Below, one piece after another: positions 7,659 to 62,508 of a DNA stretch of 64,000 nucleotides. The position numbers and the translations under genes are program-made. The notes under the pieces are model-generated. The model had not been told where the DNA came from. It did no database searches and worked only from the letters and a program-made list of their open reading frames with translations. Origin of the DNA: an uncultured Winogradskyella sp. (GTDB lineage Bacteria; Bacteroidota; Bacteroidia; Flavobacteriales; Flavobacteriaceae); assembly GCA_913061495.1 (NCBI GenBank), contig CAJXVG010000002.1, forward strand, positions 1 through 64,000, in the 5' to 3' direction. Position 1 is the first letter of the stretch. Each line of letters starts with the position of its first letter.

Positions 7659-7729
7659 GATTGATTGTTTTTTGATTGACAGTATATTAGAACGCTAAAA
7701 GTTATGTTTTGTTACATTTTTAAACGAAA

Positions 7730-7752
7730 AAAGCCTCGAGTAACGAGGCTTT
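7730..7752 (-). terminator. Rho-independent terminator after the blaR1-like gene
   Basis: Perfect 9-bp stem AAAGCCTCG/CGAGGCTTT with a 5-base loop. It lies 23 bases beyond the minus-strand stop of the M56 gene. On the minus strand the stem is followed by a T run. Confidence 0.85.
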
Positions 7753-7775
7753 AAGTAGAATTTGATTTTTAAACT

Positions 7776-10025
7776 CTAATCTTCAATCCAAAATTTTACA
7801 TATCCTTTTTTATTTTGAATATTAGAGTGGACACTTATTTTTGGATTATCCTTGGTTATTTTGAGAATTTCCTCATAAGAAACTTTTTTGTCTTCAAAAT
7901 AGTATGTTATGTCATTATTCTTTAGATTTTTCACAAATTCATGGGCTGATTTAGGAGTTGGAGGAGGCGGAGGAAGAACCTTACCTTCTTTATCAGTGAT
8001 ATAGCCATCTTTATTATAATATGTTTTTTCCCCTCTGTAAACAGTAAAATAATGACTCTCCCCATTTTCTAACATTTCAAAACCAGACTCAACACCTTTA
8101 GGAGTTTCTTTTATAATTTCATTTAAAGTTTTCTTTTTACCATTCTTGTATTGTGCTGCCTTTGTTGGTGGTGGAGGTGGTGGTGGAACTTCTCCTCCAT
8201 TCTTTTTTGTTTTTGGAACTTCTGGAGCTGGAGGAGGTGGAGGTGGTGGAGGAAGATGAGGCCAAGCTTCAGCATTTTCTCTTTGTTCTTTAGACATTAG
8301 TTCTCTATAGATTCTATAGTACTTATCGTAATCTTTTTGTTTAATTATTGGGTATTGGTTTTTGTCATTATTAGCTTCCGATTTTCTTACTACCTCATTT
8401 ATTTTTTTTGCCCAAGTATTGTATTCTGCAACTTGTTTTGGTGTTGCTTTTTGTTGATTGTTGATTTCGTTTCTTGGTTTATCATATTTTGCTGGTATAG
8501 GTGGTGGCATCAGAATATAATAAGACTTCAATTCTTCCTCTGTAAATTGATTATATAATTTTGTAGCCTGGTTATACAGAATTTTAAGCTCAGTATTATC
8601 TGTTTGTGGCCCATTTATATACTTTTTAATAGCTTTGGAATATGTTTTGGACAATGCTTTATAGTCATTTACAAAAGCTTCTTTATAGAATTTATTAAAG
8701 CCATCTTTAGTGTATAAACTAAATTGAAAGGGTTGAGGAAATTTTTCGCTTAGCGCATTTTTATGAACCTTAGAACCCATGTAATATACAATGTCTTCTG
8801 GCGAGTAATTGTTTAATTTAGTATTTGATATTGATTTTTTATCTAACCAAAGGGCGAATTTGTCTTTGTTTTTCCAAGATTCAAATTGGCTTTTTGAAGG
8901 GGTTTTAGGTTCAACCGAATATAATTTAGGAATTATTTCCTTAAGAAAAGGATGCAATTCAACCGAATTGCGCTGCTGTTCATTCATGAGGTCATAGATA
9001 GCAGCTAAACGCTCGTGTGTACCAACAGGTATAATTATATTTGAAGAACTTTTTAATTTGTCAATCCAATTTCTATACTCTTGCATGAGTTTTTCTGATG
9101 CACCTTCATTCTGCTCCTCGTTTTCAACTTGCAAAACTTGTAACGTTTCTGTCGGTTCTCTTTCAACATATTTTGTTTCAGCAAAACTGTAAAAAAGAAA
9201 TGCAATAATTGGGAGCAACACTAAAGTGCTCAACCAAATTCTGGTTTTTGATGTTTGTGTTTTCATAACTGTAAATCGTTTTTTGATGGATGAATAATTA
9301 ATGGCACTTGCCAATTCATAATGTGGAGTGCTTGATGAAAATTGTAATAATATATTTTGATAGTTTTTAGTGGCAATACCTTGATTTAAAACTGCTTGGT
9401 CTGCCAAAAATTCGTGATTCAGTTTTATGTGATGTTTCAGTATGTAGATCAATGGGTGAAACCAAAATACAATCTGTAGTAGTTCCATGACCAAAATATC
9501 AATACTGTGCAATTGCTTGGCGTGTGTTTCCTCGTGCAGCATCACTTCTTTAGGGATGTTCTGTTTTTCAAATTTTGATTGATTATAAAATATATAGTTG
9601 AAAAATGAATGTGGAATGCGATACTCTTTCAATAATACATAAATAAAAGAACGTTCAACTATAGTTTTACTGCTTGAAATCCGTCGGTACATTTTAGCAA
9701 GATTCACAATAAATCTGATGCAAAAGAGGGAAACTCCAAAACCGTATATGAGCCAAAGGACAGTTTCTAAATCTAAAAATTGAAGTTGACCTTGAGGAGT
9801 TTCTGTTAGCTCCGTTGGAAATGCCATTGGCAGAGTTTCAAAATCAGAAACAACAGGTTCAACATATTCCTTAATGGTTAATTTAGGAATAACCAAAGCC
9901 ACAACCATTGCACCCAATAAATAATAACGCTTTAGGTGGTGAAAACTCTGCTTTTCTAACAACAATACGTAAAGTAACCAAAGCAATAACAAACAACCCG
10001 AAAATTTTAAAAGGTAAGTTTCCAT
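7776..10025 (-). CDS. M56-family (BlaR1-type) membrane metallopeptidase sensor
   Basis: A 749-residue BlaR1/MecR1-like protein. The N-terminal half has four membrane helices and the cytoplasmic zinc protease site HEETH (near residue 165), followed by HEFLADQAVL with the third ligand. In known systems this protease is activated by an external signal and leads to cleavage of the BlaI repressor. A beta-lactam-binding transpeptidase domain is not visible. Instead the C-terminal region after a helix near residue 275 is long, charged, and contains three proline runs (PPPPPPPPAP, PPPPPPP, PPPPPTP). The signal may therefore not be a beta-lactam. It directly follows blaI with a 2-base gap. Confidence 0.88.
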   Translation of the reverse strand: METYLLKFSGCLLLLWLLYVLLLEKQSFHHLKRYYLLGAMVVALVIPKLTIKEYVEPVVSDFETLPMAFPTELTETPQGQLQFLDLETVLWLIYGFGVSLFCIRFIVNLAKMYRRISSSKTIVERSFIYVLLKEYRIPHSFFNYIFYNQSKFEKQNIPKEVMLHEETHAKQLHSIDILVMELLQIVFWFHPLIYILKHHIKLNHEFLADQAVLNQGIATKNYQNILLQFSSSTPHYELASAINYSSIKKRFTVMKTQTSKTRIWLSTLVLLPIIAFLFYSFAETKYVEREPTETLQVLQVENEEQNEGASEKLMQEYRNWIDKLKSSSNIIIPVGTHERLAAIYDLMNEQQRNSVELHPFLKEIIPKLYSVEPKTPSKSQFESWKNKDKFALWLDKKSISNTKLNNYSPEDIVYYMGSKVHKNALSEKFPQPFQFSLYTKDGFNKFYKEAFVNDYKALSKTYSKAIKKYINGPQTDNTELKILYNQATKLYNQFTEEELKSYYILMPPPIPAKYDKPRNEINNQQKATPKQVAEYNTWAKKINEVVRKSEANNDKNQYPIIKQKDYDKYYRIYRELMSKEQRENAEAWPHLPPPPPPPPAPEVPKTKKNGGEVPPPPPPPTKAAQYKNGKKKTLNEIIKETPKGVESGFEMLENGESHYFTVYRGEKTYYNKDGYITDKEGKVLPPPPPTPKSAHEFVKNLKNNDITYYFEDKKVSYEEILKITKDNPKISVHSNIQNKKGYVKFWIED

Positions 10026-44450: not shown

Positions 44451-46031
44451 ATGGAAATAGACAATCTCATAACAATACTTTCAATTATTGGTGTGGCCAG
44501 TATCGTTTTTTATGTGATGTTTCGAGTGAGCAAGTATGCGCTTTTCTTGAATTTTATAATGCTTTCGTGCTTGGTTTTCTATTTAATTGAAGTGAACGAA
44601 TTGGTATCGATATTGCTATATCTGGTATGCCCTCTAATGCTAATTAATATAGGATTGTATGTTTTTCTGCATAAAACTGAAAATGCACAAAATAGCGATA
44701 GAAAATATCAAGTCAATTTTGCTACTACCAAGGGAAATTTCAAATTGGATAATATCAAAAGAGGCGCATCCATAATCGGTTCTGCCGGAAGTGGAAAAAC
44801 CGAAAGTGTAGTGTATGGCTTTTTGAAACATTTCCGGAAAGAGCACTTTTGTGGAATAATCCACGACTACAAGGATTTTGAGCTTACCGAAATGGCATAT
44901 CCGCTTTTTAAGGATAGCGATATCCCGTTTAAGGTCATTTCCTTCGATAAAATAATCCATAGGGTAAATCCTATTGCGCCACGCTACTTAGAGAACGAGG
45001 AAAGCGTAAACGAAGTCTCACGTGTATTAATAGAAAACCTTTTGGAACAAAGAGAAAGCGGAACTACTGGAACTACAAAATTCTTTAACGACGCGGCGGA
45101 AGGTTTGATTGGTGGATTGATTTGGAAACTGAAAACCGACTATTCCAACTACTGTACGCTTCCACATTTGATAGCGATTTATCAAATGCTCGATACCGAT
45201 AGCCTTATCCAGTTTTTGGAAACCAACACCACATCGAGAGCAATGGCAGATGCTTTTATTAGTGGTAAGGATTCCGATAGACAGACAGCTGGCGTAAAAA
45301 GCACCTTGGCAAATGCGCTGAAACGAATCAGTACACAGCGGATTTTTATGACACTATCCGCAGACGAAGTCCCATTGAATATCAATAGCGAGGAAAATCC
45401 TGCAATTATTTCCGTGGTCAATAACCCAAAATATGAAACGTCTTATTCGCCCGTTATTGCAACCATAATACATACGATTACCAAGCAAATGAGCGTGAGC
45501 GGTCAAAGACCGTCTTTTCTTTTGATGGAAGAAGCGCCGACTATTCGCTTATTGAATATGCACCGAATTCCGGCAACGCTCAGAAGTTATGACATCGCTA
45601 CTATTTATGTGATGCAGGACAAAATCCAAAATGATATGATGTATGGCGATAAGGCAAGTAAGGCTATTTTAAGCAATCTATCCTATCAGTTTTTTGGCAA
45701 GGTCAACGACCCAGATACTGCCAAATATTACGAGCGCTTTTTTGAAATCATCAAAGACCCAACGAAAAGCATCAGTCGTGGACATAACTTGGATTTTGAT
45801 ACACGAATCACAACAGGCGAAAAGGAAATCCCTAAAATTAGAGCAGATGTGTTCTTTAGATTGAAACAGGGCGAGTTTATTACCTATGCTGATGGAAAGG
45901 ATAAGAAAGTGCAGTTTAAGTTATCAAGAATCCAAAGGCAGCTTCCTGAAGAATCGAAGCAGTTTTCTCAGGCTGATTTAGCAACTAATTTTACGAAGAT
46001 ATATAGAGATGTAAAAACGATATTTAGTTAA
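44451..46031 (+). CDS. Coupling ATPase (TraD/TraG/VirD4-like, MobC type)
   Basis: The 526-residue type IV coupling protein recognises the relaxosome and pumps DNA to a conjugation pore. Two or three membrane helices occupy the first 75 residues. The Walker A motif is GSAGSGKTES (about residue 112) and the Walker B is FLLMEEAPTI. The sensor part RSYDIATIYVMQDKIQND follows. It is encoded 3 bases after the relaxase stop. No pore (Tra) genes follow, so the element probably needs a helper conjugation system or has its pore genes elsewhere. Confidence 0.88.
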   Translation: MEIDNLITILSIIGVASIVFYVMFRVSKYALFLNFIMLSCLVFYLIEVNELVSILLYLVCPLMLINIGLYVFLHKTENAQNSDRKYQVNFATTKGNFKLDNIKRGASIIGSAGSGKTESVVYGFLKHFRKEHFCGIIHDYKDFELTEMAYPLFKDSDIPFKVISFDKIIHRVNPIAPRYLENEESVNEVSRVLIENLLEQRESGTTGTTKFFNDAAEGLIGGLIWKLKTDYSNYCTLPHLIAIYQMLDTDSLIQFLETNTTSRAMADAFISGKDSDRQTAGVKSTLANALKRISTQRIFMTLSADEVPLNINSEENPAIISVVNNPKYETSYSPVIATIIHTITKQMSVSGQRPSFLLMEEAPTIRLLNMHRIPATLRSYDIATIYVMQDKIQNDMMYGDKASKAILSNLSYQFFGKVNDPDTAKYYERFFEIIKDPTKSISRGHNLDFDTRITTGEKEIPKIRADVFFRLKQGEFITYADGKDKKVQFKLSRIQRQLPEESKQFSQADLATNFTKIYRDVKTIFS

Positions 46032-47402: not shown

Positions 47403-49505
47403 TTATTTTTTACCGATTTTTCGCTTTAATAATTGCGCATTAATAGCTACTATAATAGTACTTAAGCTCATAAATACCGCACCAACCGCAGGACCTAAAA
47501 CAAAACCTGAAGAATATAATACACCGGCTGCTAAAGGAATAGCCACGACATTATATCCTGTAGCCCAAATCAAATTCTGAATCATTTTATTGTAGGTGGC
47601 TTTCCCAAAGAGAATTAAATTGGCAATATCCTGTGGATTACTGTTGACCAGAATAATATCGGCAGTTTCAGCTGCTACATCTGTACCTGAGCCTACTGCA
47701 ATTCCTACATCGGCTTTTGCGAGAGCGGGCGCATCATTAACACCATCACCCGTCATAGCTACAAAATCACCTTTGTTCTGTAACTCTTCTACAATTTCAA
47801 CTTTTTGATGTGGCAATACCTCGGCGTAGTAACCATCCAATCCAAGTTTTTCACTCACAGCCTTAGCGGTTTTTTCATTATCGCCAGTTGCCATTAGAAC
47901 TTTAATGTTATTCTTTTTAAATATTTTGATTGCCTCGGCAGATTCCGGTCTTATTTCATCAGCAAGCGCAATGTAACCTGCCAGTTTCCCATCAATTAAT
48001 ACAAACACGACAGTTTCAGCGGCATCACTATAAGCGTCTTTTGGGATGTCTATTTTTTCATCTCTTAAATAGCCAGGACTTACTACCTTAACTTCTTTGC
48101 CTTCAACATTTGCCTCTACACCCTTACCTGTAATTGCATTAAAGTTTTCAGGTTTTGGAATGGTTATGTTATCTTCTTTTACTTTTTTAATAATCCCAAC
48201 AGCTATTGGATGTTCAGAACTTTGTTCCAATGCACTTGAAAGTCTTAAAATTTCCTCTGTTGAATAAGTCTCGTTAACAGACTCGATTCGAGTGACACCA
48301 AAATCACCTTTGGTTAGTGTTCCTGTTTTATCAAAAAGCAAAGCTGAAATTTTTCTGGACTCTTCAAACGCAGTTCTATTTCGAATAAGCAATCCATTTT
48401 GAGCAGATACTGCCGTAGAAATCGCAACCACCAATGGAATAGCAAGCCCTAATGCGTGTGGACAAGCAATAACCATAACGGTAACCATTCTTTCTAAAGC
48501 ATAGACAAACGGAAAGCCTAAAATCAACCATACTGCTAATGTTCCAAAACCAATAGCCAAAGCGATATAGGTTAGCCATTTTGCAGCTCTATCTGAAAGG
48601 TTTTGCATTTTAGATTTAGTTTTTTGCGCTTCTTCAACCATTTTGATAACCTTGTTGAGATAGCTGTCTTTTCCAGTATGTTCAACTTTTACTTTTAAGG
48701 TGCTATTGCCATTTACCGAACCACCAATAACCTTATCGCCTTCATCTTTTTTTACAGGTTTAGATTCGCCTGTGAGCATAGATTCATTTAGGTAACTGGT
48801 TCCGTCTACTATTATTCCGTCAGCTGGAACTTTTTCACCTGGTTTTACCAAAATCACATCATCTTTTAGTAAATCTTCCAGAGGAATGTCTTCTATGGTG
48901 TCGCCTTTTACCCTGTGCGCTTCCGCAGGCATCATACTCACCAACAACTGTAGGGCTTTTGATGCACCTAACACACTTTTCATTTCTATCCAATGGCCAA
49001 GCAACATTATGGCTATAAGTGTTGATAGTTCCCAGAAAAAGTCTTCACCTCTTAAGCCAAAAACCGTAGCAGTACTATAAAAATAAGCTACAGAAATTGC
49101 CATAGAAATCAAGGTCATCATTCCTGGTGCACCTTTTTTGACTTCAGACCAAAACCCTTTTAAAAATGGCCAACCACCATAAAAATATACAACAGTGGAA
49201 AGTGCAAAAAGGATGTATGGATTTCCTGGAAGTAAAAATTCATAACCAAAAAATTCTTGAATCATTGGTGAGAAGAACAATATGGGGATGGTAAGCACGA
49301 GTGTTACCCAAAACCGTTTTCTAAAGTCTGCAATCATCATTTTATGATGGTCGTGACCCATTTGACCGTGACCCGGATTGTGACCCGAATGGTCCCCACC
49401 TTTGTGGTTCATTTTAGAATGGTCTTCTTTTTTGTGTTTCATCTTCGAATGGTCCATTTTAGAATGGTCCATTTCTTCGTGATTGTGGTGTTCGTGATTT
49501 TCCAT
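47403..49505 (-). CDS. Copper P-type ATPase, CopB type
   Basis: The 700-residue P1B-3-like ATPase exports copper (or silver). Its N-terminal 55 residues are a His/Met-rich tail (HSKMDHSKMKHKKEDHSKM), replacing HMA domains. The membrane metal motif is ACPHALGLAIPL, the CPH form that marks CopB. TGES, DKTGTLTKG, SEHPIA (HP), TGDNEKTA and GDGVNDAPAL are all present. It is more specific for copper than the CPC pump at 25.5 kb. Confidence 0.95.
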   Translation of the reverse strand: MENHEHHNHEEMDHSKMDHSKMKHKKEDHSKMNHKGGDHSGHNPGHGQMGHDHHKMMIADFRKRFWVTLVLTIPILFFSPMIQEFFGYEFLLPGNPYILFALSTVVYFYGGWPFLKGFWSEVKKGAPGMMTLISMAISVAYFYSTATVFGLRGEDFFWELSTLIAIMLLGHWIEMKSVLGASKALQLLVSMMPAEAHRVKGDTIEDIPLEDLLKDDVILVKPGEKVPADGIIVDGTSYLNESMLTGESKPVKKDEGDKVIGGSVNGNSTLKVKVEHTGKDSYLNKVIKMVEEAQKTKSKMQNLSDRAAKWLTYIALAIGFGTLAVWLILGFPFVYALERMVTVMVIACPHALGLAIPLVVAISTAVSAQNGLLIRNRTAFEESRKISALLFDKTGTLTKGDFGVTRIESVNETYSTEEILRLSSALEQSSEHPIAVGIIKKVKEDNITIPKPENFNAITGKGVEANVEGKEVKVVSPGYLRDEKIDIPKDAYSDAAETVVFVLIDGKLAGYIALADEIRPESAEAIKIFKKNNIKVLMATGDNEKTAKAVSEKLGLDGYYAEVLPHQKVEIVEELQNKGDFVAMTGDGVNDAPALAKADVGIAVGSGTDVAAETADIILVNSNPQDIANLILFGKATYNKMIQNLIWATGYNVVAIPLAAGVLYSSGFVLGPAVGAVFMSLSTIIVAINAQLLKRKIGKK

Positions 49506-49523: not shown

Positions 49524-49817
49524 TTATCGTAATTTTTTTCTCATAGCTTCCGAAATGTTTTCGGCATAGACGCCATAGGCATCTACCAAAAGTCCTTTAA
49601 TCCCATTTTTTGATGAAATAGCATAAAGCACACTGTTATCGTCGGTACTGCTCATACCCTCAAAACGATGCATCTCGTCAACATTAAAATCTTCTGGGTG
49701 TATTTCAATTTTTAGTGAGGCACACTCCAAACATTCTGGTTTTAGGTTAAAATCATATGTATAGCCTTTTCCCTGTAAATCGTTTATTGCTTCTGAAAGT
49801 GTGTGGTAGTTGTTCAT
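49524..49817 (-). CDS. Small conserved-looking protein, 97 residues
   Basis: A soluble protein starting MNNYHTLSEAINDLQGKGYTYDFN. It contains KPECLECASLKIEIHPEDFNVDE and ends in a helical stretch. A CxxC (CLEC) is its only notable motif. Similar proteins are sometimes labelled 'phosphoribosylpyrophosphate synthetase' in databases, but it lacks any PRPP motif; the label probably comes from the nearby true synthetase. Function unknown. It is 7 bases downstream of the 50.4-kb gene. Confidence 0.65.
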   Translation of the reverse strand: MNNYHTLSEAINDLQGKGYTYDFNLKPECLECASLKIEIHPEDFNVDEMHRFEGMSSTDDNSVLYAISSKNGIKGLLVDAYGVYAENISEAMRKKLR

Positions 49818-49824
49818 TTTCGTT

Positions 49825-50469
49825 CTATTTATAAGTCATTGTAAAATAACTATTATCTTCTTCTGTAAATTTCTGAAAGGTCAATAAACCATTCCCGTTT
49901 AATTTTTCGTTGACGGTATAGTTGAGTTGCTTAATGCGAATGCCCCACGCATAGGCCTTAATATTTATTTTTGAATTAATGTTGGTTTTATTGTCCTTCA
50001 ATGTTCGGTCGTAAATCTTTATGATGCTTTTTGAACCAAAAAAATCCAACAGTCCTGAATCAAAAGTCATTTCTAATTCTATATCTTCAAGGTTGTCCAA
50101 ATCGTAGAGCTCTTTAAATTTTTTAGAGGTGGTATTAATTTCGGTCTCCTTTGATTTTGGGTTTGAAAACGGAAAAGCCATTACCATTACACTTGCCTCA
50201 TCAGGCTTACAGCGATAGGTTGTGGTGTATTTATCGGTCGATTTTTTGTCTTTATCAAACAATTCCGTAACCACCTTAATTTCATAGTATCCATTTTTCT
50301 CTATTGTTTTACCAGCTTCAAAAGTTTGTTTATTGAGAAAAGCACCTTTTTCATCAAAATTCTCACGAATGACCAATCTGCCTGAAATCTGCCCAATAAG
50401 CATTTCAGTTTGTCCAGTCATTGTGATGCTGAATAAAATAATCAGTACTATGAAGATTCGACTTCTCAT
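49825..50469 (-). CDS. Secreted protein of unknown function (DUF3108-like fold possible)
   Basis: The 214-residue product has a signal peptide (IFIVLIILFSITMTGQ). The mature chain is beta-rich (GRLVIRENFDEKGAFLNKQTF, YYEIKVVTELFD, SKINIKAYAWGIRIKQLNY), which recalls DUF3108-type or lipocalin-like envelope proteins, though the match is not secure. It overlaps the PRPP-synthetase stop by 4 bases, so it is co-translated with it. Confidence 0.6.
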   Translation of the reverse strand: MRSRIFIVLIILFSITMTGQTEMLIGQISGRLVIRENFDEKGAFLNKQTFEAGKTIEKNGYYEIKVVTELFDKDKKSTDKYTTTYRCKPDEASVMVMAFPFSNPKSKETEINTTSKKFKELYDLDNLEDIELEMTFDSGLLDFFGSKSIIKIYDRTLKDNKTNINSKINIKAYAWGIRIKQLNYTVNEKLNGNGLLTFQKFTEEDNSYFTMTYK

Positions 50470-51359
50470 ATATGGAGCATTAATTTCTTTACCTCTTTTG
50501 CCAGTATATCGCTTAAATCTATGCCATTGGACGGATGCGGAATGGTATTGCAGGTCACTATCTTTTCTACTCCGGAATCCAACAAATCTTGATAGGCATT
50601 ACCTGAAAAAACGGCGTGAATACCAACACATATAGGTGGTCTCATCCCTGCTTTTTTCAAATGCACCACGGTTTCAATCATCGTTCGCGCCGTAGAAATA
50701 ATATCATCTACCAAAATAGGTGTAGCATCTTTATATTTATCCACATCGGGGACAGAGACTTCTACATCACGGTCACCGTGACGCACCTTTTGTAATACTG
50801 TAAATGGTGCTCCTGCATTTTTGGCGACTTCTGAAACCCATTGTTCACTTTCAGAATCGGGACCGATAAGTACTGGGTTTTCGATGTTTTCCTTTATCCA
50901 ATCTGAAATAGCATCGGCAGCGTGAATTACTTTATTTGGAATTTGATACACTTCTCCTAATGAACTAATTCTGTGTAAGTGAGGGTCAACCGTGGTAATG
51001 CTATCGGCAAAACCTGAAATCAATTTTCCGAAGAAACCAGAAGTTACCCCTTCGCCTTCATTAAATACTTTGTCCTGCCTCATATATGCCAAATAGGGCG
51101 CTACCAAACAGGTGCACATTGCCCCTAATGATTTGGCAGTATGACTTAAAAAATAAAGGGGCAACAGTTTTTCATCCGGTTCGTGCAAGGTGCATACCAG
51201 TACCACACATTTATCTTTAACATCAGATAAGATGCGTGTGTACGATTCCCCGTCAGGGAATTTACGCAAAATGGCTTTGCCCACTTCAGCATCCATTTTT
51301 GTAGCCATTAGTTCTGTGAGTTCTTCATTTCCGGGAAGACAGAATAATATTGTTTTCAT
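50466..51359 (-). CDS. Ribose-phosphate diphosphokinase-like enzyme (PRPP synthetase)
   Basis: The 297-residue protein belongs to the PRPP synthetase family. FPDGESYTRI, SLGAMCTCLVAPYLAYMRQDKVF, TVDPHLHR and the PRPP loop VDDIISTARTM are present. It is shorter than the classical enzyme (about 315), and the PRPP loop differs from VDDMIDTGGT, so it belongs to a divergent subgroup. Next to an AMP phosphorylase-like gene (6 bases upstream), it could either make PRPP or work in the reverse direction on ribose phosphates released from nucleotides. A normal prs presumably exists elsewhere in the genome. Confidence 0.85.
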   Translation of the reverse strand: MKTILFCLPGNEELTELMATKMDAEVGKAILRKFPDGESYTRILSDVKDKCVVLVCTLHEPDEKLLPLYFLSHTAKSLGAMCTCLVAPYLAYMRQDKVFNEGEGVTSGFFGKLISGFADSITTVDPHLHRISSLGEVYQIPNKVIHAADAISDWIKENIENPVLIGPDSESEQWVSEVAKNAGAPFTVLQKVRHGDRDVEVSVPDVDKYKDATPILVDDIISTARTMIETVVHLKKAGMRPPICVGIHAVFSGNAYQDLLDSGVEKIVTCNTIPHPSNGIDLSDILAKEVKKLMLHI

Positions 51360-51365
51360 AGTTTT

Positions 51366-52868
51366 TTAAATTATAGTTATGATGTCGTTATGGTTGTTTT
51401 TATATTCCAGAGCATAGTTGAGTTCGCCTTTGGATTCAGCATATATGGTATATAATAATTGGTCTATTTCAATTTTTTCATTTAAATGGACATTCAAAAG
51501 AATCCCTGCCGATTTAGACTGCGGTGCGCCGGAAAGCTTGGCGAGTTTTGCTATCTTTCTATTATCTATGTGCTTTAAAACCCCAGAGTTTTCTGCTCTA
51601 ATTTCGGTTTTATAGGGTGCTAAAACAGGTTTTGAAAAGCGACCTTGCGCATTACAAATAGCAAGGAATTTTTTATAAGCCTGACCAGATTTGAGAATTT
51701 CACGTGCGGTTTCCAGTCCCTTTCCTTTTTCTACTTTTCCAGAAAGTTCTAATAGTTCAGTAGCTAAAAGCAATGCTCTTTCTGTTAAGTCTTTAGGTGC
51801 ATCTTCCTCATTTTTCAAAACTTTTAATATATCTATGGCTTCTAATGTAGGACCGATACCCCTTCCAACAGGCTGCGTGCCATCCGTAACTACAACTTTT
51901 ACATTCAAGTCAACAGATGTCCCAACGGTTTCCATATGATTTTTTAGTTTTTGAGCCATTTCGGTACTGCGAACCTTGGCGGTTTCACCCACGGGAATAT
52001 CAATGACCACGTGAGTGGAACCAGCTGCTGCTTTTTTAGAGAGTACCGAAGCAATGAGCTGCCCTTCACTATCAATATCCAAGGCTTTTTCAATTTTGAT
52101 GAGCACATCATCGGCAGGACTTAACTGCGCCGTGCCTCCCCAAACAAAACATCCGCCTTCTTTTTCTACTACAGTCTTTATTTCCTCGGAAGAGAGCGTA
52201 ACATTGGTCAATACTTCCATTGTATCTGCTGTGCCTGCTGGCGAAGTGATTGCCCGTGAGGATGTTTTTGGCATAGTAAGACCATACGCGGCAACAATGG
52301 CAACGACCAATGGTGTTGTTCTATTGCCAGGCAATCCACCAATGCAATGCTTGTCGACCACGATATCCTTGTTCCAGTTCAGTTGCTTTCCGGAAGCAAT
52401 CATTGCTTTAGTAAGGTCACTTATTTCATCAATATCCATTCGGTCGCCAGCACAGGCAGTAATAAATGCCGAAAGGTGGATGTTGGAATAATCGCCTTCC
52501 ACGATATCGGTTATGATGTTGTTATAGGCCTTATAATCCAGTTTTTTGTTATAGATTTTTGCCCTGACGTGGCTTAAGGATTCTATAGGTTCTAAATGGG
52601 AAACATACAATGTATCGTTTTGGGACACATTGAGTTTTTTCGCAGCAGCATCTGATAGTCCGATTTCATTGGGCAACAAGATATCAGAATTCAAAACATT
52701 AAGACTTGCCACGATTGATGTACTTGCGTTGGATATTCTTATTCGGGTAAGTGCCTCAAACCCTTCTGAAATACAGACGTGGCAATCTTCGCGCATATAC
52801 ACTACATTTTCGTTTTGGGTATAGATTCCGAGATGTTTATATTTTAATATGTTTGAGTGTGTGTCCAT
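51366..52868 (-). CDS. AMP phosphorylase-type enzyme (thymidine phosphorylase superfamily)
   Basis: The 500-residue enzyme matches the long AMP phosphorylase subfamily: about 85 extra N-terminal residues before the pyrimidine-phosphorylase core, a length near that of archaeal AMPpase, and the signature DKHCIGGLPGNRTTPLVV, ITSPAGTADTMEVL and GGTAQLSPADDVLI. In archaea this enzyme turns NMPs and phosphate into base and ribose 1,5-bisphosphate. There is no R15P isomerase or RuBisCO nearby, so the fate of the product is unclear; it may feed the adjacent PRPP-type enzyme. Confidence 0.85.
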   Translation of the reverse strand: MDTHSNILKYKHLGIYTQNENVVYMREDCHVCISEGFEALTRIRISNASTSIVASLNVLNSDILLPNEIGLSDAAAKKLNVSQNDTLYVSHLEPIESLSHVRAKIYNKKLDYKAYNNIITDIVEGDYSNIHLSAFITACAGDRMDIDEISDLTKAMIASGKQLNWNKDIVVDKHCIGGLPGNRTTPLVVAIVAAYGLTMPKTSSRAITSPAGTADTMEVLTNVTLSSEEIKTVVEKEGGCFVWGGTAQLSPADDVLIKIEKALDIDSEGQLIASVLSKKAAAGSTHVVIDIPVGETAKVRSTEMAQKLKNHMETVGTSVDLNVKVVVTDGTQPVGRGIGPTLEAIDILKVLKNEEDAPKDLTERALLLATELLELSGKVEKGKGLETAREILKSGQAYKKFLAICNAQGRFSKPVLAPYKTEIRAENSGVLKHIDNRKIAKLAKLSGAPQSKSAGILLNVHLNEKIEIDQLLYTIYAESKGELNYALEYKNNHNDIITII

Positions 52869-52896: not shown

Positions 52897-54273
52897 TTAT
52901 TCTATTTCTTCGATGGTGTATAATTGCGGAATTTCTGCATCCCACCCATAGGTTTCCTTGATGCCTTTTTGCAATGCTTCTGCACTCTCTTTTTCACCGT
53001 GTACAATGAAAATACGTTCGGGTTTGTTTTTTATCTTATCCATCCAGTCCATAAGTTCTGCGTGGTCTGCGTGTGCCGAAAGCCCTTCAATTTCTGCGAC
53101 CTGCATTTTAAACGGCACCCATTTTCCATATACTTTTAGTTCTTTTTCACCTTCCAATAATTTTCTGCCACGAGTGCCTTCAGCTTGATAGCCTACAAAA
53201 AGTAAGGTGTTATTTGGATTTTGTGCCTGTGTTTCAAGATAGTTAAGCATTCTTCCGCCTGTGAGCATTCCGCTTCCTGCAATCACGATTTTGGGTTTGT
53301 TATCTGTTCTTAATTCCATTGTTTCACGATAGCTGCTAACAACCGTAAAGTGCGAGCACATTTCGTCACATTCATTGTCTTCCAATCTGTGCCAATCCCG
53401 AGTTCTATGAAACAGTTCCAATACGTTGGCACCCATCGGACTGTCCATAATCATTTGTACTCTGGGGATTTTCTTTTCTTTCAATAATTTCCAAAAGATG
53501 AGCATCATTAGCTGGGCACGTTCTACCGAAAAACTTGGGACAAATAAGCTGCCACCTCTGTTGATGGTGTCATTGACCAATTTTTCAATTTGTGGAAGTG
53601 CTTCTACTTCATCGGGATGAAGCCTTCCTCCGTAGGTGGATTCAATAAATAACACATCCGCTTTCTTTGGCTTTAAGGGTGGAAACAGTAACAAATCATT
53701 TGTTCTGCCTATATCGCCAGAAAACACGAAACGTTTTCCGCGTATATCTAACTCAATGTATGTGGCACCAAGGATGTGTCCGTTGTATTGAAACCTCGCT
53801 TTCACATCTTTGAGAATGGGTAGCCATTGCGAGGGTGGTACTCCTTTGAAGTAAGGGATTGTTTTTTCTACATCATTTAAATCGTAAAGTGGTTCCGCAG
53901 GACTGTGTTTGGAATAGCCCTCTTTATTGGCACGTTCGGCATCCTGTTCTTGTATTTTGGCACTATCATTCAATATGATTTTTGCGATGTCCAAGGTGGG
54001 ATTGGTACCATAGATGGGGCCATTAAAGCCTTGCTTTACCAATCTCGGCAGATAACCTGTATGGTCCATATGGCCGTGGGTAAGCAAAACGGCATCAATA
54101 TCAGCAACATTAACAGGTGGGTACTCCCAGTTTTTAAGGCGTAATTCCTTCAATCCCTGAAAAAGTCCGCAGTCTATCAGTATCTTTCTATCTCCTGTAT
54201 CAACCAGATATTTTGAACCGGTTACTGTGCCTGCCGCTCCTAAAAAATGGATGTTTATTTTGTTGTTTTTCAT
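52897..54273 (-). CDS. MBL-fold metallo-hydrolase with beta-CASP and RNA-specificity domains
   Basis: The 458-residue protein resembles CPSF-type RNases. The metallo-beta-lactamase motif LLTHGHMDHTGYLP (HxHxDH), FSGDIGR and the distal His in GLSAHADH are in place. The beta-CASP insert has ADVLFIESTYGGRLHPD and VPSFSVERAQLMML, and the end RIFIVHGEKESAE matches the RMMBL RNA-specificity domain. It is probably a cytosolic RNA nuclease, which would fit next to enzymes that use nucleotides. Confidence 0.92.
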   Translation of the reverse strand: MKNNKINIHFLGAAGTVTGSKYLVDTGDRKILIDCGLFQGLKELRLKNWEYPPVNVADIDAVLLTHGHMDHTGYLPRLVKQGFNGPIYGTNPTLDIAKIILNDSAKIQEQDAERANKEGYSKHSPAEPLYDLNDVEKTIPYFKGVPPSQWLPILKDVKARFQYNGHILGATYIELDIRGKRFVFSGDIGRTNDLLLFPPLKPKKADVLFIESTYGGRLHPDEVEALPQIEKLVNDTINRGGSLFVPSFSVERAQLMMLIFWKLLKEKKIPRVQMIMDSPMGANVLELFHRTRDWHRLEDNECDEMCSHFTVVSSYRETMELRTDNKPKIVIAGSGMLTGGRMLNYLETQAQNPNNTLLFVGYQAEGTRGRKLLEGEKELKVYGKWVPFKMQVAEIEGLSAHADHAELMDWMDKIKNKPERIFIVHGEKESAEALQKGIKETYGWDAEIPQLYTIEEIE

Positions 54274-54583: not shown

Positions 54584-55429
54584 TTATTGATGGACTGAAC
54601 ATAATTTTTCTGAATCTTCAAGAATCTTTTTATGTCTTTTTTTATCAATTCCTATTTTTTCCAAGAGCTTCGGACTTTCGTGAAGCTCTTTACAGAGTAC
54701 GATGCCTTCATCTAATAATTTTGTTTTTTCAGCTTTAGTAAGCGTTGTTAAAGCGGTTAAGGGATGTAGCCCAGATTTATCTATTCTGTCCTTGAGACCA
54801 TTTCCTCTTGGATAATCCCAACTGCTTAAAAGCATTCCAACACATTTCCCGTACTGAATGGCATCGGTTGTGAAACGCGTATTGGTGTACACAGCTCCTT
54901 TATGAAGTTTAGCCTCGTGACCTTTTTGGTGTTCCCATTGCTTTTCTACGTCCAAAAACCGTGAATGGATATATAATGGGATTTTTACATTACAAAACCT
55001 GCCTTGGTCGCTATGGTATTTGCATTCAATCATATAGTGTTTGTTTTCTTTTTGGGCGATAACATCAACTTCGTGCTGTACACAATTACCTTGAACAATA
55101 ACTCCCACCTTTGTGCTAAAGCCTTCCATCTCTAAAATCTTACCGACAAATTTTTCAAAAGGAAATCCTGATGGCCCTAATTCCATTATCGCTTTTTTTA
55201 GCTTGTATTTTGAGGCACTTACGCGAGATTTACGCTTAAGCATTTTAAATGCCATCTGATAGATTTTTTTTGTGGTAATTCCATCATAGAGTTGGCCTTC
55301 GACTTGTTCAACTATTTGCTGAATTAATTCTTCGCTCGCTTGTGAACGCCTTAAGGAATTGATAAGCTTATCTACATCAAAGGCTACCACATCACCAGAA
55401 TACTTCACTATGTTGATTGGATTTTTCAT
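54584..55429 (-). CDS. ATP-cone domain fused to an Mrr-like nuclease domain
   Basis: The 281-residue protein has an N-terminal ATP-cone (about residues 5-90: NIVKYSGDVVAFDVDKLINSLRRSQAS ... GITTKKIYQMAFKML), the nucleotide-sensing module of ribonucleotide reductases. It is joined to a PD-(D/E)xK core of the Mrr/restriction-endonuclease type: NCVQHEVDVIAQKENKHYMIECKYHS, with Glu/Asp then ExK. The C-terminal 80 residues are helical (DEGIVLCKELHESPKLLEKIG). It could be a nuclease controlled by ATP/dATP level. It overlaps the universal-stress gene by 4 bases. Confidence 0.82.
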   Translation of the reverse strand: MKNPINIVKYSGDVVAFDVDKLINSLRRSQASEELIQQIVEQVEGQLYDGITTKKIYQMAFKMLKRKSRVSASKYKLKKAIMELGPSGFPFEKFVGKILEMEGFSTKVGVIVQGNCVQHEVDVIAQKENKHYMIECKYHSDQGRFCNVKIPLYIHSRFLDVEKQWEHQKGHEAKLHKGAVYTNTRFTTDAIQYGKCVGMLLSSWDYPRGNGLKDRIDKSGLHPLTALTTLTKAEKTKLLDEGIVLCKELHESPKLLEKIGIDKKRHKKILEDSEKLCSVHQ

Positions 55430-56262
55430 TTTTTAATATGTATGGTCATTACTGGAAGCACGGAATGATTTGTAACGCCTTCGGCAATACTTTTTGAAAA
55501 TAGGCTCAAAAATCCCGTTTTTCCGTGAGTGCTCATTGCAATTAAATCTGCGGGCTGATGTTTTAAAAATGTATTGATGCCTGCTTCTACGGAAGACTCA
55601 TTATGGACGCTCATTGAGAAGTTTTTTAGATTGGGGAATTTTTCAAGAAATTCCTTTACAGGATTTAAACCAAGCTCTATGCTATTAAAGTCAGTTTCTG
55701 TGTTTACTCGTAACAAATGGATTTTAGCATCGCATTTTTTGGCTATTGACAATACTTCTTGAAATGGATGCGTGACATCCTCTTCAAAAGAAGAAACAAA
55801 TAGAATGTCCTTGAAGGGAAATGTGACATCCTCTTCTTTGACAACGATAATGGGCGCATTGGCTTTTCGAACTATTTTTTCAACATTACTACCAGTAATT
55901 TCTCTAATGACACCTTTGGTTCCACTACTGCCGGTAACGATGAAATCGTGATGGAAATGACCAGAATGTTCTAAAATATCTTTCTGTCCCGAATCAAATT
56001 GAAGAAAAGTTCGACATTTAAGACCTTCGTGCTCAGCCTTTTTTTCCAGTTCCCGCAATTTTGATTTAACGACTCCAATTTCCTTTAAAGTTTCGGGATA
56101 CCTTTTTTCTTTATGTTTATCCAGTTTTACCCAATCAACAGGGGTAGTCATTTGATGTAAAAAGTGTATCTCTGCATCGTATAGTTTGGCTATTTCGATA
56201 CCAAGATTTGCTGCTTTAGTGCAGTTTTTCGAGAAATCGGTAGGTACGAGTATGTTTTTCAT
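55426..56262 (-). CDS. Universal stress protein, two UspA domains
   Basis: A 278-residue protein from the ATG at 56262 (MKNILVPTDFSKNCTKAANLG); the longer track start adds 15 unlikely residues. Domain 1 ends with GSSGTKGVIREITGSNVEKIVR, the G-2x-G-9x-G(S) nucleotide loop of ATP-binding Usp. Domain 2 has MSTHGKTGFLSLFSKSIAEGV, a more divergent loop. Usp proteins help cells survive energy stress. A second Usp is cut by the right edge of the window. Confidence 0.88.
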   Translation of the reverse strand: MKNILVPTDFSKNCTKAANLGIEIAKLYDAEIHFLHQMTTPVDWVKLDKHKEKRYPETLKEIGVVKSKLRELEKKAEHEGLKCRTFLQFDSGQKDILEHSGHFHHDFIVTGSSGTKGVIREITGSNVEKIVRKANAPIIVVKEEDVTFPFKDILFVSSFEEDVTHPFQEVLSIAKKCDAKIHLLRVNTETDFNSIELGLNPVKEFLEKFPNLKNFSMSVHNESSVEAGINTFLKHQPADLIAMSTHGKTGFLSLFSKSIAEGVTNHSVLPVMTIHIKK

Positions 56263-56284
56263 AATTTTAGTTTTATTGTTTTTC

Positions 56285-57058
56285 TTATTGGGCGGTATAG
56301 CCACCATCGATAACCAGTTCGGAACCGGTCATAAATTTGGATTCATCAGAGGCCAGATATACAACTCCGTACCCTATATCGTCAGGTTCTCCCAAATGAC
56401 CAATTGGATGTAAACTTTCCAGTTGTTTTTTGCCTTCTTCTACGTCACCTTGAGCCTTGAGAAAATTCTCTACCATTGGGGTCCAGATATAAGCAGGATG
56501 GATAGAATTGATACGGATGCCATAGCCTTGTTTAGTACAATGTAGAGCGGCAGATTTAGTGAAAATGGTAACGCCGCCTTTACTTGCGTTATACGCAGGT
56601 AAATTGGGATCACCGATAAGTCCTTCAATGGAAGAGAAGTTGATGATGGAACCACCTTCATCTGTTTTCCTCATACCTTTTATCCCATATTTCGTGCCTA
56701 AAAAAGTGCCATTTAGGTTTATATCTATGAGGTTTTTCCAATCTTCAAGGGTTACATCTTCAACGGTTCCTCCGAGTCCTATTCCAGCAGAATTTGCTAA
56801 AATGTGTAATTTTCCATAAGTTTCAAGTGTAGTTTCAATAACGTTTTTCCATTCATCTTCTTTGGCAACATCTTGTTTAATGAATATGGCCTCACCACCG
56901 TCTTCTTTTATTTGTTGAACTACTTTTTTACCACCTTCTTCGTCTATATCTGACACGACTATTTTTGCTCCTTCTCGTGCCAATAGTTTAGCACTTGATT
57001 TTCCCAAACCAGATGCTCCTCCTGTGACAATGGCTACTTTATTTTTTACTCGTTTCAT
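56285..57058 (-). CDS. Short-chain dehydrogenase/reductase
   Basis: The 257-residue classical SDR has NAD(P) motif TGGASGLG, the NSAG motif (LANSAGIG), and catalytic Ser and Tyr-xxx-Lys in INFSSIEGLIG and PAYNASKGG. It resembles glucose-1-dehydrogenase or cyclohexanol-type SDRs; the substrate is unknown. An Asp at the end of beta-2 (VVSDIDEEGG) favours NAD. Its role may be alcohol or sugar redox balance in the adjacent fermentation-type genes. Confidence 0.88.
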   Translation of the reverse strand: MKRVKNKVAIVTGGASGLGKSSAKLLAREGAKIVVSDIDEEGGKKVVQQIKEDGGEAIFIKQDVAKEDEWKNVIETTLETYGKLHILANSAGIGLGGTVEDVTLEDWKNLIDINLNGTFLGTKYGIKGMRKTDEGGSIINFSSIEGLIGDPNLPAYNASKGGVTIFTKSAALHCTKQGYGIRINSIHPAYIWTPMVENFLKAQGDVEEGKKQLESLHPIGHLGEPDDIGYGVVYLASDESKFMTGSELVIDGGYTAQ

Positions 57059-58098: not shown

Positions 58099-59070
58099 TT
58101 ATGTTCCAAATAGTTCTAAGAGTTCGTGCAGTTCTTTATTGACCTGATGTTGTTTAACCACTTCACTAAAAGGGGTTAAGTGCAATTGATTGTTTAAAAT
58201 CCCAACCATTACATTCTTTTTACTTTGTAAAAGTGATTTTACGGCTTCCACCCCAAGCCTAATACCCAACATTCTATCTAAAGCTGACGGATTTCCACCT
58301 CGCTGTATATGGCCAAGCTTTGTTATGCGTAAATCGACATTGGGATTGACTTCCTTTATTTTTGAAGAAACAAGTTCGGCACCAATTTCGTCACCTTCAG
58401 AAACTACGATTAGAAAAGCATCCTCGCTATTGTAATTTTTCACTTTATTCAATAGGTTAATAAAGTCCTTACCGCTCTCTGGAATTAAAATGGCGTCCGC
58501 ACCAACCGTCAAACCAGAATGAATGCCAATATAACCCGAATCCCTTCCCATTACTTCCACGATAAATACCCGATTGTGAGATTCGGCAGTATCCCTTATT
58601 TTATCAATATTTTCAATGGCTGTGTTAACTGCGGAATCAAAACCAAGGGTGTAATCCGTACCCGAAATATCGTTGTCAATAGTTCCGGGAATCCCTATGA
58701 ATGGGATATCGCATATCTCTGAAAAAGCAAGTAATCCCTTAAATGTACCATCGCCACCAATGGCAATCAACGCGTCTATTTTGTTTGCATTTAGGGTTTG
58801 CGAGGCTTTTTTTCGACCGTCAAGTTCCAGAAAACGTTTGCTTCGCGCCGTCTTAAGAATAGTGCCACCCTTTTGGGTCAGTTTTTGTAATTCGTGTGAT
58901 TTTAATTGAACCAAGTCACCGTCTATCAATCCTTCATATCCTTTTCTAAAACCACTAACTTTTATACCAGTTGCTTCAGCCGTTTTTGCAATGGCGTACA
59001 AGGCTGAATTCATCCCTGGACTATCACCTCCAGAGGTAAATACACCTATATGTTTTATAGTATTATCCAT
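58099..59070 (-). CDS. pfkA: ATP-dependent 6-phosphofructokinase
   Basis: The 323-residue PFK has the ATP loop GVFTSGGDSPGMNSAL, AIGGDGTFKG (Gly at the PPi/ATP switch), PGTIDNDISGTDYTLGFDSA (Gly rather than Lys, so ATP not PPi) and VEVMGRDSGYI. It makes fructose 1,6-bisphosphate, the substrate of the aldolase encoded two genes away. Start and length are normal. Confidence 0.94.
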   Translation of the reverse strand: MDNTIKHIGVFTSGGDSPGMNSALYAIAKTAEATGIKVSGFRKGYEGLIDGDLVQLKSHELQKLTQKGGTILKTARSKRFLELDGRKKASQTLNANKIDALIAIGGDGTFKGLLAFSEICDIPFIGIPGTIDNDISGTDYTLGFDSAVNTAIENIDKIRDTAESHNRVFIVEVMGRDSGYIGIHSGLTVGADAILIPESGKDFINLLNKVKNYNSEDAFLIVVSEGDEIGAELVSSKIKEVNPNVDLRITKLGHIQRGGNPSALDRMLGIRLGVEAVKSLLQSKKNVMVGILNNQLHLTPFSEVVKQHQVNKELHELLELFGT

Positions 59071-59072
59071 AG

Positions 59073-60413
59073 TTATAAAGCTTCTTTTTTAAGAATTTCA
59101 GTCTTTTTTATACCATACAGTCTATTAAAAACCATACAAGCTGTGAGGTCACCCGTTACGTTTACAGCTGTTCTGAACATTCCCAATAGTCTTTCTACAC
59201 CAATGATAATGATGATGCCTTCGGCTGGTATACCGACACTTCCCAAAACAGAAGCGAGTATCACCACACCACCTCCGGGAATTGCAGGTGTGCCAATGGA
59301 AGCAGCAACGATGGTTACGATGACCACAATAATATTGAGCAAACTCATTTCCAAGCCATAGGCTTGGGCTATGAATAGCGTAGTTATGGTTTGATAGAGT
59401 GCAGTGCCATCCATATTGACGGTTGCACCTATGGGGATGATAAAATTGCTAATGGTCTTGTCAACCTTCAATTCTTCTTCGGCTGTTTGAAGGGAAAGTG
59501 GCATCACGGCTGCAGAGCTTGTGGTTGAAAAGGCCAATAATTGAACGTCCCTTATTTTTTTTAGGAAATGCATAGGGTTTGCTTTTCCAAGAAGCACAAT
59601 TAGTCCTAAATAGAAAATTACCAAAAGTAACAGACCGAGCAGGACGACACCAACATAATAGGTGAGACCAGAAAGAGAACTTAAACCAACACTAGAGGTA
59701 AGCTGCGCCATAAGACCGAAAACAGCAATAGGCACTAGAAGCATTGACCATTTTACTACTGTCATACAGACTTCCTGAATGGCACTTAGAAGTAGCTTTA
59801 CTGGGCGCAGTAAGGCATTTTCTAGTGATAGCACAGCTACACCAATAATGATTGTGAAAATCACGATACTCAACATTTCACCGCTAACCATAGACGCCAA
59901 GGGGTTTTCGGGAAGCAGGTTTGAGATGGCATCAGGAATTGTTTCAATTCCGAAGGAAAGCTCGGGTTCATCAGTTGAAACTGCCATAATTTCATTATGC
60001 TCTTTTAGTGATTGTTGATGAAGAAAACGACCCGGTCTAAAAATTTGGGATAGTATCGTACCTATGCTAACCGAAACTATTGTTGTGCCCAAAAAATACA
60101 GTAAAACACCACCGCCAAGTTTTTTTAGACTATCCTTATCGTTACTTACGATTCCTGTGATGATAGAAGCCACAATCAACGGAATCATAATCATTTGAAC
60201 CAGTTTCAGAAATAGTACACCAGGCAATGCCAGCCAATTCCCCGCGATATCTGCGGTTTCTTTAGAAATCCATCCATTTTGTGGGCTTAACAACAAACCA
60301 AATCCGACACCTAAAAACAAGGCAATGATTACCTTAAGCCATAAGCGACTTTCTACCAGTTTGAGAAGGTAGTGGTTAAGTGATTTTAATGATTTTATCT
60401 CAGTGTCAAACAT
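59073..60413 (-). CDS. Dicarboxylate/amino-acid:cation symporter (DAACS family)
   Basis: The 446-residue membrane protein has eight or more helices, with the hairpin regions and signature NMDGTALYQTITTLFIA, and a SFSTTSSAAVMPL-like serine-rich loop (AFSTTSSAAVMPLSLQ). It is likely to import Glu, Asp or C4-dicarboxylates with Na+ or H+. In this context it could supply or export fermentation acids. It is placed between pfkA (2-base gap) and the aldolase (8-base gap). Confidence 0.92.
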   Translation of the reverse strand: MFDTEIKSLKSLNHYLLKLVESRLWLKVIIALFLGVGFGLLLSPQNGWISKETADIAGNWLALPGVLFLKLVQMIMIPLIVASIITGIVSNDKDSLKKLGGGVLLYFLGTTIVSVSIGTILSQIFRPGRFLHQQSLKEHNEIMAVSTDEPELSFGIETIPDAISNLLPENPLASMVSGEMLSIVIFTIIIGVAVLSLENALLRPVKLLLSAIQEVCMTVVKWSMLLVPIAVFGLMAQLTSSVGLSSLSGLTYYVGVVLLGLLLLVIFYLGLIVLLGKANPMHFLKKIRDVQLLAFSTTSSAAVMPLSLQTAEEELKVDKTISNFIIPIGATVNMDGTALYQTITTLFIAQAYGLEMSLLNIIVVIVTIVAASIGTPAIPGGGVVILASVLGSVGIPAEGIIIIIGVERLLGMFRTAVNVTGDLTACMVFNRLYGIKKTEILKKEAL

Positions 60414-60421
60414 TCTGTTGA

Positions 60422-61483
60422 TTATGCTATATTAATTTTATTATCCAGATACACTTCCTGAACAGATTGTAATATTTTCACGCCTTCACCGAAGGGCTTT
60501 TGAAATGCTTTCCTTCCCATTATCAGCCCAGAGCCGCCAGCCCTTTTATTGATAACGGCAGTTGTTACAGCTTCAACCAAATCAGACTCACCTTTGGACC
60601 CACCTCCTGAGTTAATCAGTCCTATTTTACCCATATAGCAATTAGCAACTTGTAATCGGCAAAGGTCTATGGGATGGTCTGTGGTTAGGATTTTATACAT
60701 TTCACCATCATATTTTCCAAATCCTATCTCTTTGAAACCAAAATTATTGGTGGGTAATTTTTGTTTGATGATGTCTGCTTGAATAGTAACACCCAAATGG
60801 TTTGCCTGCCCAGTTACATCGGCAGCTGCGTGATAATCTTCCTTGTTGGTTTTAAATGCCTCGTTCCGTGTATAGCACCATAAGATGGTGGCCATTCCCA
60901 GATTATGGGCTTCTTCAAAAGCTTCAGCTATTTCTTTTAGCTGTCTGTTGCTTTCTGCTGAACCGAAATAAATCGTAGCTCCTACGGCAATTGCTCCCAT
61001 ATCCCAAGCGGTTTTTACATTACCAAAGAGCGTTTGGTCATATTTATTGGGATAGGTGAGTAACTCATTATGGTTAATCTTAACGATAAAAGGGATTTTA
61101 TGGGCATACTTTCGAGCGTTCAAGCCCAATACTCCAAACGTAGATGCCACACCATTACAACCCGCTTCGATAGCAAGTTTTATAATGTTCTCAGGGTCAA
61201 AATAATCCGGGTTCTTGTAGAATGAAAAGGTTGCGCTATGCTCAATGCCTTGGTCTACTGGAAGAATACTCAAATAGCCTGTGCCACCAAGATTGCCGTG
61301 GTTGTATAATTGGTTAAGGCTTCTTATTACCTGTGGATTTCTGTTGCTATTGACAAATACTTTTTCAAGACTATTTTTACTTGGTGTCTGCAATTCATCT
61401 TTTGTGATTCTTTCACAAACGTGATTCAAGTAGAAATCAGCTTTGTCTCCTAAAAGCTCTGTGATATTTATATCTGTTTTCAT
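60422..61483 (-). CDS. fbaB: Class I fructose-bisphosphate aldolase (FbaB/DhnA type)
   Basis: The 353-residue Schiff-base aldolase of the DhnA/FbaB family is close in length to E. coli FbaB. Family motifs include the [15 protein letters not shown] start of the barrel, [27 protein letters not shown], and [12 protein letters not shown] with the phosphate loop. It is not the class II zinc enzyme usually found in Flavobacteriia glycolysis. It lies next to the type II GAPDH, with which it forms an archaeal-looking pair. Confidence 0.9.
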
Positions 61484-61494
61484 TTAAAAGAGGA

Positions 61495-62508
61495 TTAATG
61501 AATTCCTAAGCTTTCATTGGTTTTGGCGATGGATTTCCCCCCATCTGTTTCAATTCCAGTTAATGCCCTAATAGCATCGATAGTTTCTGGTATTACAATG
61601 GCTTGGTTATCGACTACATAGGCATAAAAAAGTTCGTCTCCCTGCACCTTTAACATATCTTTCCATAGCGCAACTTCGTACATATCGCCCCAAGGTCTTC
61701 CCATATCTAAGAACATTTCCTTGATGGTATTGTTAGAAACCAGACCTTGGTCATATTGAATTAGTTTAATACGACTTGAAGTTTTAAAGGCATTTAGCAC
61801 TTCTTGCTTTGTCGACTGCTTTTTCAATTTCACATTCCAGTAGTGCATATGGCTTAAGGTTTGCGGTACTTTTACTGCTGCGGTGATGACATCCAATTCT
61901 GGGTCAACACTTTTAGCATCCGGACCTTGATGGCTTGGAATATCTTTTTCGGGAACCATCGTATTCATAATACCACCTAAATGACTTTCCCAAGGGTCTG
62001 TAGCTCTTCTTAAAAGTGTACCTCTGGCATAATCCAATAAATCGGCTCTTTTTAAAGCGGTCAAGGTTCTTAAAATAGACGTAGTATTACAGGAAACTAC
62101 TCTTGTTGCATTCAAGTTTAGAGCGGATTTGTAATTATTTTCTGCACTAAAGGAATGCCCTGTAGTTTCGTGTTTTTCGCCACCGTGTAGAATAAATTTG
62201 ATGTTTTGCTCCTTGTAGATAACGACATTCTGAGCGGCAATTTTTTTTGGCGTACAGTCCACAACAAGGTCTGATTTCTTTAAAAGTTCCTGCATATTGC
62301 CTTTAACAGAAATCCCTTCAGATTTCATATTATCAGCTGCATCTTGAGTTGCTGCGTATATGTTGTAATTCTTTCTTACTGCATTTTGAATGCGCCAATC
62401 GCTGATGATATCGCAAACGCCCGAAAGCTTCATATCATCTTGTAAATTGATGGCATCTGCCACCCTTTTTCCTATGACTCCGTATCCTATAACTCCTACT
62501 TTTTTCAT
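61495..62508 (-). CDS. Type II (archaeal-type) glyceraldehyde-3-phosphate dehydrogenase
   Basis: The 337-residue enzyme is of the type II GAPDH family, distinct from bacterial GapA. The start MKKVGVIGYGVIGKRVADAI, the VVDCTPKK and HGGEKHE segments, the active-site SCNTTSILRTL (Cys about 140), and the C-terminal DMYEVALWKDMLKVQGDE are diagnostic. It oxidises glyceraldehyde 3-phosphate with NAD(P). Such enzymes are typical of archaea and are found only in scattered bacteria. It starts 20 bases after ndh and is followed by fbaB after 11 bases. Confidence 0.9.
   Translation of the reverse strand: MKKVGVIGYGVIGKRVADAINLQDDMKLSGVCDIISDWRIQNAVRKNYNIYAATQDAADNMKSEGISVKGNMQELLKKSDLVVDCTPKKIAAQNVVIYKEQNIKFILHGGEKHETTGHSFSAENNYKSALNLNATRVVSCNTTSILRTLTALKRADLLDYARGTLLRRATDPWESHLGGIMNTMVPEKDIPSHQGPDAKSVDPELDVITAAVKVPQTLSHMHYWNVKLKKQSTKQEVLNAFKTSSRIKLIQYDQGLVSNNTIKEMFLDMGRPWGDMYEVALWKDMLKVQGDELFYAYVVDNQAIVIPETIDAIRALTGIETDGGKSIAKTNESLGIH

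Follow-up and report, generated by a model that had tools for sequence, protein, structure and literature searches.

A phosphorylase and PRPP-synthetase-like gene pair of bacterial islands and plasmids as a possible ribose 1,5-bisphosphate module

What becomes of ribose 1,5-bisphosphate (R15P) in a bacterium that encodes an AMP phosphorylase-type enzyme, and what is the role of the small PRPP-synthetase-like protein encoded next to it? The question is raised by two genes of an uncultured Winogradskyella sp., found in a stretch of 64,000 nucleotides that we refer to, at its full length, as the window. The first-pass annotation had described them as an AMP phosphorylase beside a divergent PRPP synthetase, and this description held: both are intact open reading frames (ORFs) on the minus strand and, according to the ORF analysis of the window, 6 nt separate the phosphorylase from the downstream gene (hereafter PRS-like). 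The features discussed below are:

51366-52868, minus strand: phosphorylase of the AMP (NMP)-phosphorylase type, 500 aa, intact ORF
50466-51359, minus strand: PRS-like enzyme (short PRPP-synthetase type, PRK07199 family), 297 aa, intact ORF, proposed here to be an R15P-directed phosphotransferase
50829-50855, minus strand: rebuilt pyrophosphate (PP) loop of the PRS-like enzyme, residues 169-177 (S E S E Q W V S E), after PD168, from the PRS-like alignment
50682-50708, minus strand: ribose 5-phosphate (R5P) loop DDIISTART, residues 218-226, from the PRS-like alignment

In profile searches the phosphorylase passed the cut-offs of NF003338 (PRK04350 subfamily; 689.5 bits, cut-off 434) and TIGR02645 (599.8 bits, cut-off 434.6) and stayed below that of the equivalog TIGR03327, AMP_phos (488.9 bits, cut-off 535). 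Its best solved relative is the AMP phosphorylase of T. kodakarensis (4GA5, E 7e-94), with which it shares the motifs PGN(R/K)T and PKTSSRAITS, both absent from the pyrimidine nucleoside phosphorylase (PyNP) 3H5Q. The T. kodakarensis enzyme phosphorolyses NMPs to R15P (PMC9700705, PMC8376864), and the same activity (NMP + Pi -> base + R15P) is a well supported prediction for the window enzyme, based on homology and on the PhnN fusions described below. The likeness to the archaeal NMP phosphorylase (AMPpase, TK0352; PDB 4GA4-4GA6) thus covers family, length class and both motifs, whereas the bacterial enzyme differs in falling below the TIGR03327 equivalog cut-off, in being partnered with a PRS-like gene and in belonging to a genome in which neither R15P isomerase nor RuBisCO was detected.

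This last point is relevant for the fate of the product. Profile searches of the window genome, which is estimated to be 96% complete, retrieved no RuBisCO (PF00016) and no R15P isomerase (TIGR00511), in agreement with the earlier claim that the archaeal route to RuBisCO is absent, and no PhnN (TIGR02322) over the cut-off, so that a known R15P consumer was not found there. The pentose bisphosphate pathways of Thermococcales and haloarchaea (PMC9700705) are similar in that R15P is a node of nucleotide-carbon metabolism, but they use R15P isomerase, while an isomerase over the cut-off was absent from all 52 bacterial genomes searched, nearly all of them with the phosphorylase. The isomerase route was consequently rejected for the pair genomes; the weaker matches (139-187 bits, against a family cut-off of 314) are probably other members of the R15P isomerase superfamily.

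The association of the two genes is far too strict for a chance adjacency, which we reject on the basis of a Fisher p of 3e-48: among 398 Pseudomonadota genomes, 45 had the phosphorylase, 41 the PRS-like gene and 40 both. Over genomes and plasmids, they occurred together in 93 of 93 loci (a few of these being duplicates of the same genome), with one SDR gene lying between them in a single genome (G309). The one exception among the PRS-like genomes of this sample is G836, with a PRS-like gene that has the PDxES loop and no phosphorylase; this gene (L195:7775-8716, minus strand) is located near amino-acid transport genes.

We found the PRS-like gene in 103 plasmid records, of which 48 are conjugative. 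The pair was present in all eight plasmid loci examined, and its genes overlap on plasmids of Acidovorax, Legionella, Sphingobium, Sinorhizobium, Paracoccus and Criblamydia. Few Bacteroidota have the family (3/395), and within the genus it is patchy, with four genomes (the window's own and same-genus relatives) over the cut-off. PRS-like proteins from other genera have 97-100% identity to that of the window, which indicates that the island moves horizontally. Separately, a MobC/TraG-like conjugative coupling protein (window 44451-46031) adjoins the island, and island proteins are 96-100% identical in other genera (loci L039, L041 and L052), pointing to recent horizontal transfer. Another short divergent PRS is found in a same-genus relative (G004, L212:4874-5713, minus strand); by eye, its neighbours are nicotinamide phosphoribosyltransferase-like, macro-domain and Nudix-type proteins, and this is probably a separate NAD salvage cluster.

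A way to approach the role of the PRS-like enzyme is to look at what takes its place when it is missing. Of the 45 Pseudomonadota genomes with the phosphorylase, five lacked PRS-like. One of them (G708) has only a partial match with an in-frame stop, and in the other four the phosphorylase is fused in one ORF to PhnN, the PhnN domain (with an intact P-loop) coming first and the phosphorylase behind:

L196:7331-9433, plus strand: PhnN-phosphorylase fusion, Pseudomonadota genome
L199:7619-9775, minus strand: PhnN-phosphorylase fusion, Pseudomonadota genome
L198, about 7305-9080, plus strand: PhnN-phosphorylase fusion, Pseudomonadota genome
L197:7659-9977, minus strand: PhnN-phosphorylase fusion, Pseudomonadota genome

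Two of the fusions were analysed by hmmscan and passed both curated cut-offs (TIGR02322 at 181 and 186 bits, against 156), and all four contain an over-cut-off TIGR02322 match inside the same open frame. Just upstream of the fusion, hmmscan identified nadC, coding for a PRPP-using enzyme, in two genomes. No genome with PRS-like in the Pseudomonadota sample had the fusion; nine of the PRS-like genomes had a free PhnN over the cut-off. Our literature searches found no description of either the pair or the fusion, the nearest report being that nadC and phnN adjoin in Variovorax (PMC11452294). PhnN, or ribose 1,5-bisphosphate phosphokinase, catalyses R15P + ATP -> PRPP + ADP, according to work cited in PMC9700705. 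It has a P-loop kinase fold unrelated to PRS-like and is absent from the window genome, yet it occupies the same place beside the phosphorylase. PRS-like and PhnN are thus alternative partners, and this arrangement is an independent argument that R15P is what the bacterial phosphorylase makes and what its partner acts on. The fusion by itself suggests a direct route from NMP to PRPP.

By fold and profile score the PRS-like enzyme belongs to the PRPP synthetase family. It passed the cut-offs of NF005537 (PRK07199; 394.1 bits, cut-off 322) and of TIGR01251 (PRPP synthetase, EC 2.7.6.1; 194.1 bits, cut-off 113) and remained below that of the class III equivalog NF002095 (206.8 bits, cut-off 296). 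Among the best matches listed by Foldseek for its AlphaFold model (mean pLDDT 77, with residues 94-105 under 50) there were only PRPP synthetases. The closest solved sequence is the class III (archaeal) PRPP synthetase of M. jannaschii (1U9Y), and this class, which includes also the T. volcanium enzyme (3MBI), shares with PRS-like the short form, the DDIIST R5P loop and the K-x-R catalytic loop. We know of no member of the PRS-like subfamily with known activity. The window genome encodes a canonical Prs elsewhere (contig C111).

To examine the active site we aligned 84 distinct PRS-like proteins. Residues F34, D36, E38, R94, Q95, D96, H127, D168, K191, R193, D218, D219 and T226, which belong to the AMP, R5P and catalytic sites, are invariant, residue 223 is T or S, and the motif DPHLHR, another difference from class III, is likewise invariant. 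The first-pass annotation had taken the DDIISTART loop for the mark of an altered function, a view that we had to discard as a diagnostic change: R225 is present in 73 of the 84 sequences (H, Q, T, S or A in the remainder), and the loop is otherwise as in archaeal class III enzymes, which already read DDIISTGGT. The invariant change is instead in the pyrophosphate loop, where PDxGG is converted into PDxESxQW. This loop reads GPDSESEQW in the window, and its E170, S171, Q173 and W174 are conserved in 84/84 sequences, none of which has the glycine-rich canonical form PDxG(G/A); one further genome has EA at the position of ES. By comparison, 26 of 26 canonical Prs of relatives have PDxGG, and two class III sequences PD(K/R)GA. 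The canonical AMP- and R5P-contact residues are kept in PRS-like with the exception of position 97, the basic residue after RQD, in place of which nine distinct members have T, A, I, S or V (class III differs from PRS-like here too, the residue being only sometimes lost in the latter). At this position, R99 of the E. coli enzyme contacts the beta-phosphate of ADP (PMC9232217), and the Ala mutant of human PRPS1 K99 is dead (PMC4363470). The pattern suggests that the AMP- and sugar phosphate-binding half of the site has been kept, and that the part dealing with the transferred diphosphate has been altered.

We therefore consider it about an even bet, judging from gene linkage and conserved residues, that the pair constitutes a two-step R15P module in which PRS-like would consume the phosphorylase product in a step not yet described. 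The part of the earlier interpretation that would link the second enzyme to R15P gains support from the strict linkage, the replacement by PhnN and the invariant PP loop, and is better grounded than before; the part that relied on DDIISTART is not supported. Such a module would draw on the breakdown of RNA or AMP at times of limited energy or oxygen. In the first step the phosphorylase would convert NMP and Pi to base and R15P; in the second, PRS-like, with its AMP-binding half intact and its pyrophosphate pocket rebuilt, would act on R15P. The reaction that we tentatively favour, while granting that it is less than an even prospect by a good distance, is that of an R15P:AMP phosphotransferase (R15P + AMP -> R5P + ADP), in effect PRPP synthetase run backwards with one phosphate fewer. 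This would be the least disruptive reaction on a scaffold with the AMP and sugar half of the site kept and the diphosphate part changed. The R5P could enter the pentose phosphate pathway and, where phosphoketolase and acetate kinase are present, could be converted further to give ATP. By our own estimate from textbook hydrolysis energies, the phosphotransfer probably costs roughly 10 kJ/mol in the standard state, so that high AMP and removal of R5P would be needed. Within the same R15P module, PRS-like might alternatively form PRPP from R15P and ATP (with ADP as the other product) as PhnN does; we regard this as rather unlikely, and on the PRS-like scaffold it would need a register shift.

The most serious competitor is that PRS-like works as a normal PRPP synthetase, perhaps without regulation (R5P + ATP -> PRPP + AMP), with the phosphorylase removing or recycling the AMP by-product or salvaging NMPs, and with a shared operon because both enzymes serve nucleotide metabolism under stress. 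This is a substantial possibility, if one that we would not expect to prevail: the TIGR01251 score, the fold, the annotation as ribose-phosphate diphosphokinase and the retained AMP, R5P and catalytic-loop residues all agree with it, and a 2026 survey that defined new bacterial PRPS classes found that these extra classes retain the universal catalytic residues (PMC13252144; its main text mentions no phosphorylase). Against an ordinary synthetase speak a PP loop that is both rebuilt and invariant, the loss of the essential K99 position in several members, the near-exclusive linkage to an R15P-forming enzyme, replacement by PhnN in the fusion genomes and the canonical Prs already encoded in the genome. 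This second Prs, together with the change at a substrate-binding place and the frequency of PRPS pseudoenzymes in eukaryotes (PMC13252144), could also point to a non-catalytic, regulatory or structural partner to either the canonical Prs or the phosphorylase, similar to the PRPS-associated proteins, but we think this improbable because a pseudoenzyme would not need the invariant K191, R193, H127, D168, D218, D219 and T226 seen in 84 distinct sequences. Least probable of all is a phosphorylase that works on nucleosides and forms no R15P, a true thymidine phosphorylase as annotated: the curated name of NF003338 and TIGR02645 and the missed TIGR03327 cut-off would allow it, and both the motifs common to the T. 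kodakarensis NMP phosphorylase and not PyNP and the fusion elsewhere to PhnN, an R15P-requiring enzyme, speak against it.

Returning to the proposed R15P module, the genes that accompany the pair give some indication of its setting. The island genes around the pair in the window include:

52897-54273, minus strand: beta-CASP MBL-fold RNase-like protein, 458 aa (Pfam Beta-Casp, RMMBL), third conserved operon member, 90/93 loci
54584-55429, minus strand: ATP-cone/Mrr-like nuclease-domain protein, 281 aa (PF03477, PF04471), 84/93 loci
55426-56307, minus strand: universal stress protein, 293 aa (PF00582), 78/93 loci
47403-49505, minus strand: copper-type P-ATPase of the island, located downstream of the pair (TIGR01511, 618 bits over a cut-off of 397), 87/93 loci
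58099-62508, minus strand: glycolytic genes, namely 6-phosphofructokinase, a dicarboxylate/glutamate-type symporter, class I FBP aldolase and type II (archaeal) GAPDH (NF002872, NF006707 and NF003251 over cut-off)

The RNase-like gene is 28 nt upstream of the phosphorylase and is followed, further upstream, by an 84-aa ORF and then by the ATP-cone/Mrr gene, that of the universal stress protein and the glycolytic genes. Two ORFs without family match are also kept downstream, one of 214 aa (window 49825-50469; 84/93 loci) and one of 97 aa (window 49524-49817; 82/93 loci), and the genes at 58099-62508 look like a spare glycolytic enzyme set travelling with copper export. In other organisms, phosphoketolase is found directly downstream of PRS-like in Legionella fallonii and also downstream of it in genome G529, where ATP synthase genes come next (by eye), acetate kinase is directly downstream in Criblamydia, and PPK2 lies within the Acidovorax island. 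Genome-wide, the enrichment of phosphoketolase is modest (10/40 pair genomes against 42/358 others, p 0.026), too weak for an obligatory partner.

An expression context is available from B. diazoefficiens, in which bll3117-bll3116-bll3115 (phosphorylase, PRS and MBL, homologous to the window operon by annotation and gene set) are up in microoxia and down in fixK2 mutants, have a predicted FixK2 box at -74 and are listed alongside phosphoketolase-acetate kinase (PMC6515984, PMC9104804). From the setting as a whole we infer that the pair may provide an emergency energy supply from nucleotides.

The pair may bear on the fate of R15P in bacteria outside RuBisCO and phosphonate metabolism; it is common on genomic islands and conjugative plasmids, and low oxygen induces it in a model rhizobium. 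The PhnN-phosphorylase fusion alone is a clear starting point in the search for a route from NMP to PRPP. If PRS-like uses R15P, many proteins that now bear the name 'ribose-phosphate pyrophosphokinase' or 'thymidine phosphorylase' would be misnamed, and there would be a new link from RNA turnover to energy supply. Should the enzyme prove to be an R15P:AMP phosphotransferase, it would, together with the phosphorylase, keep the energy of the N-glycosidic bond as ADP with no ATP spent, and the carriers of the island could escape an AMP-only energy crisis and ferment ribose from RNA.
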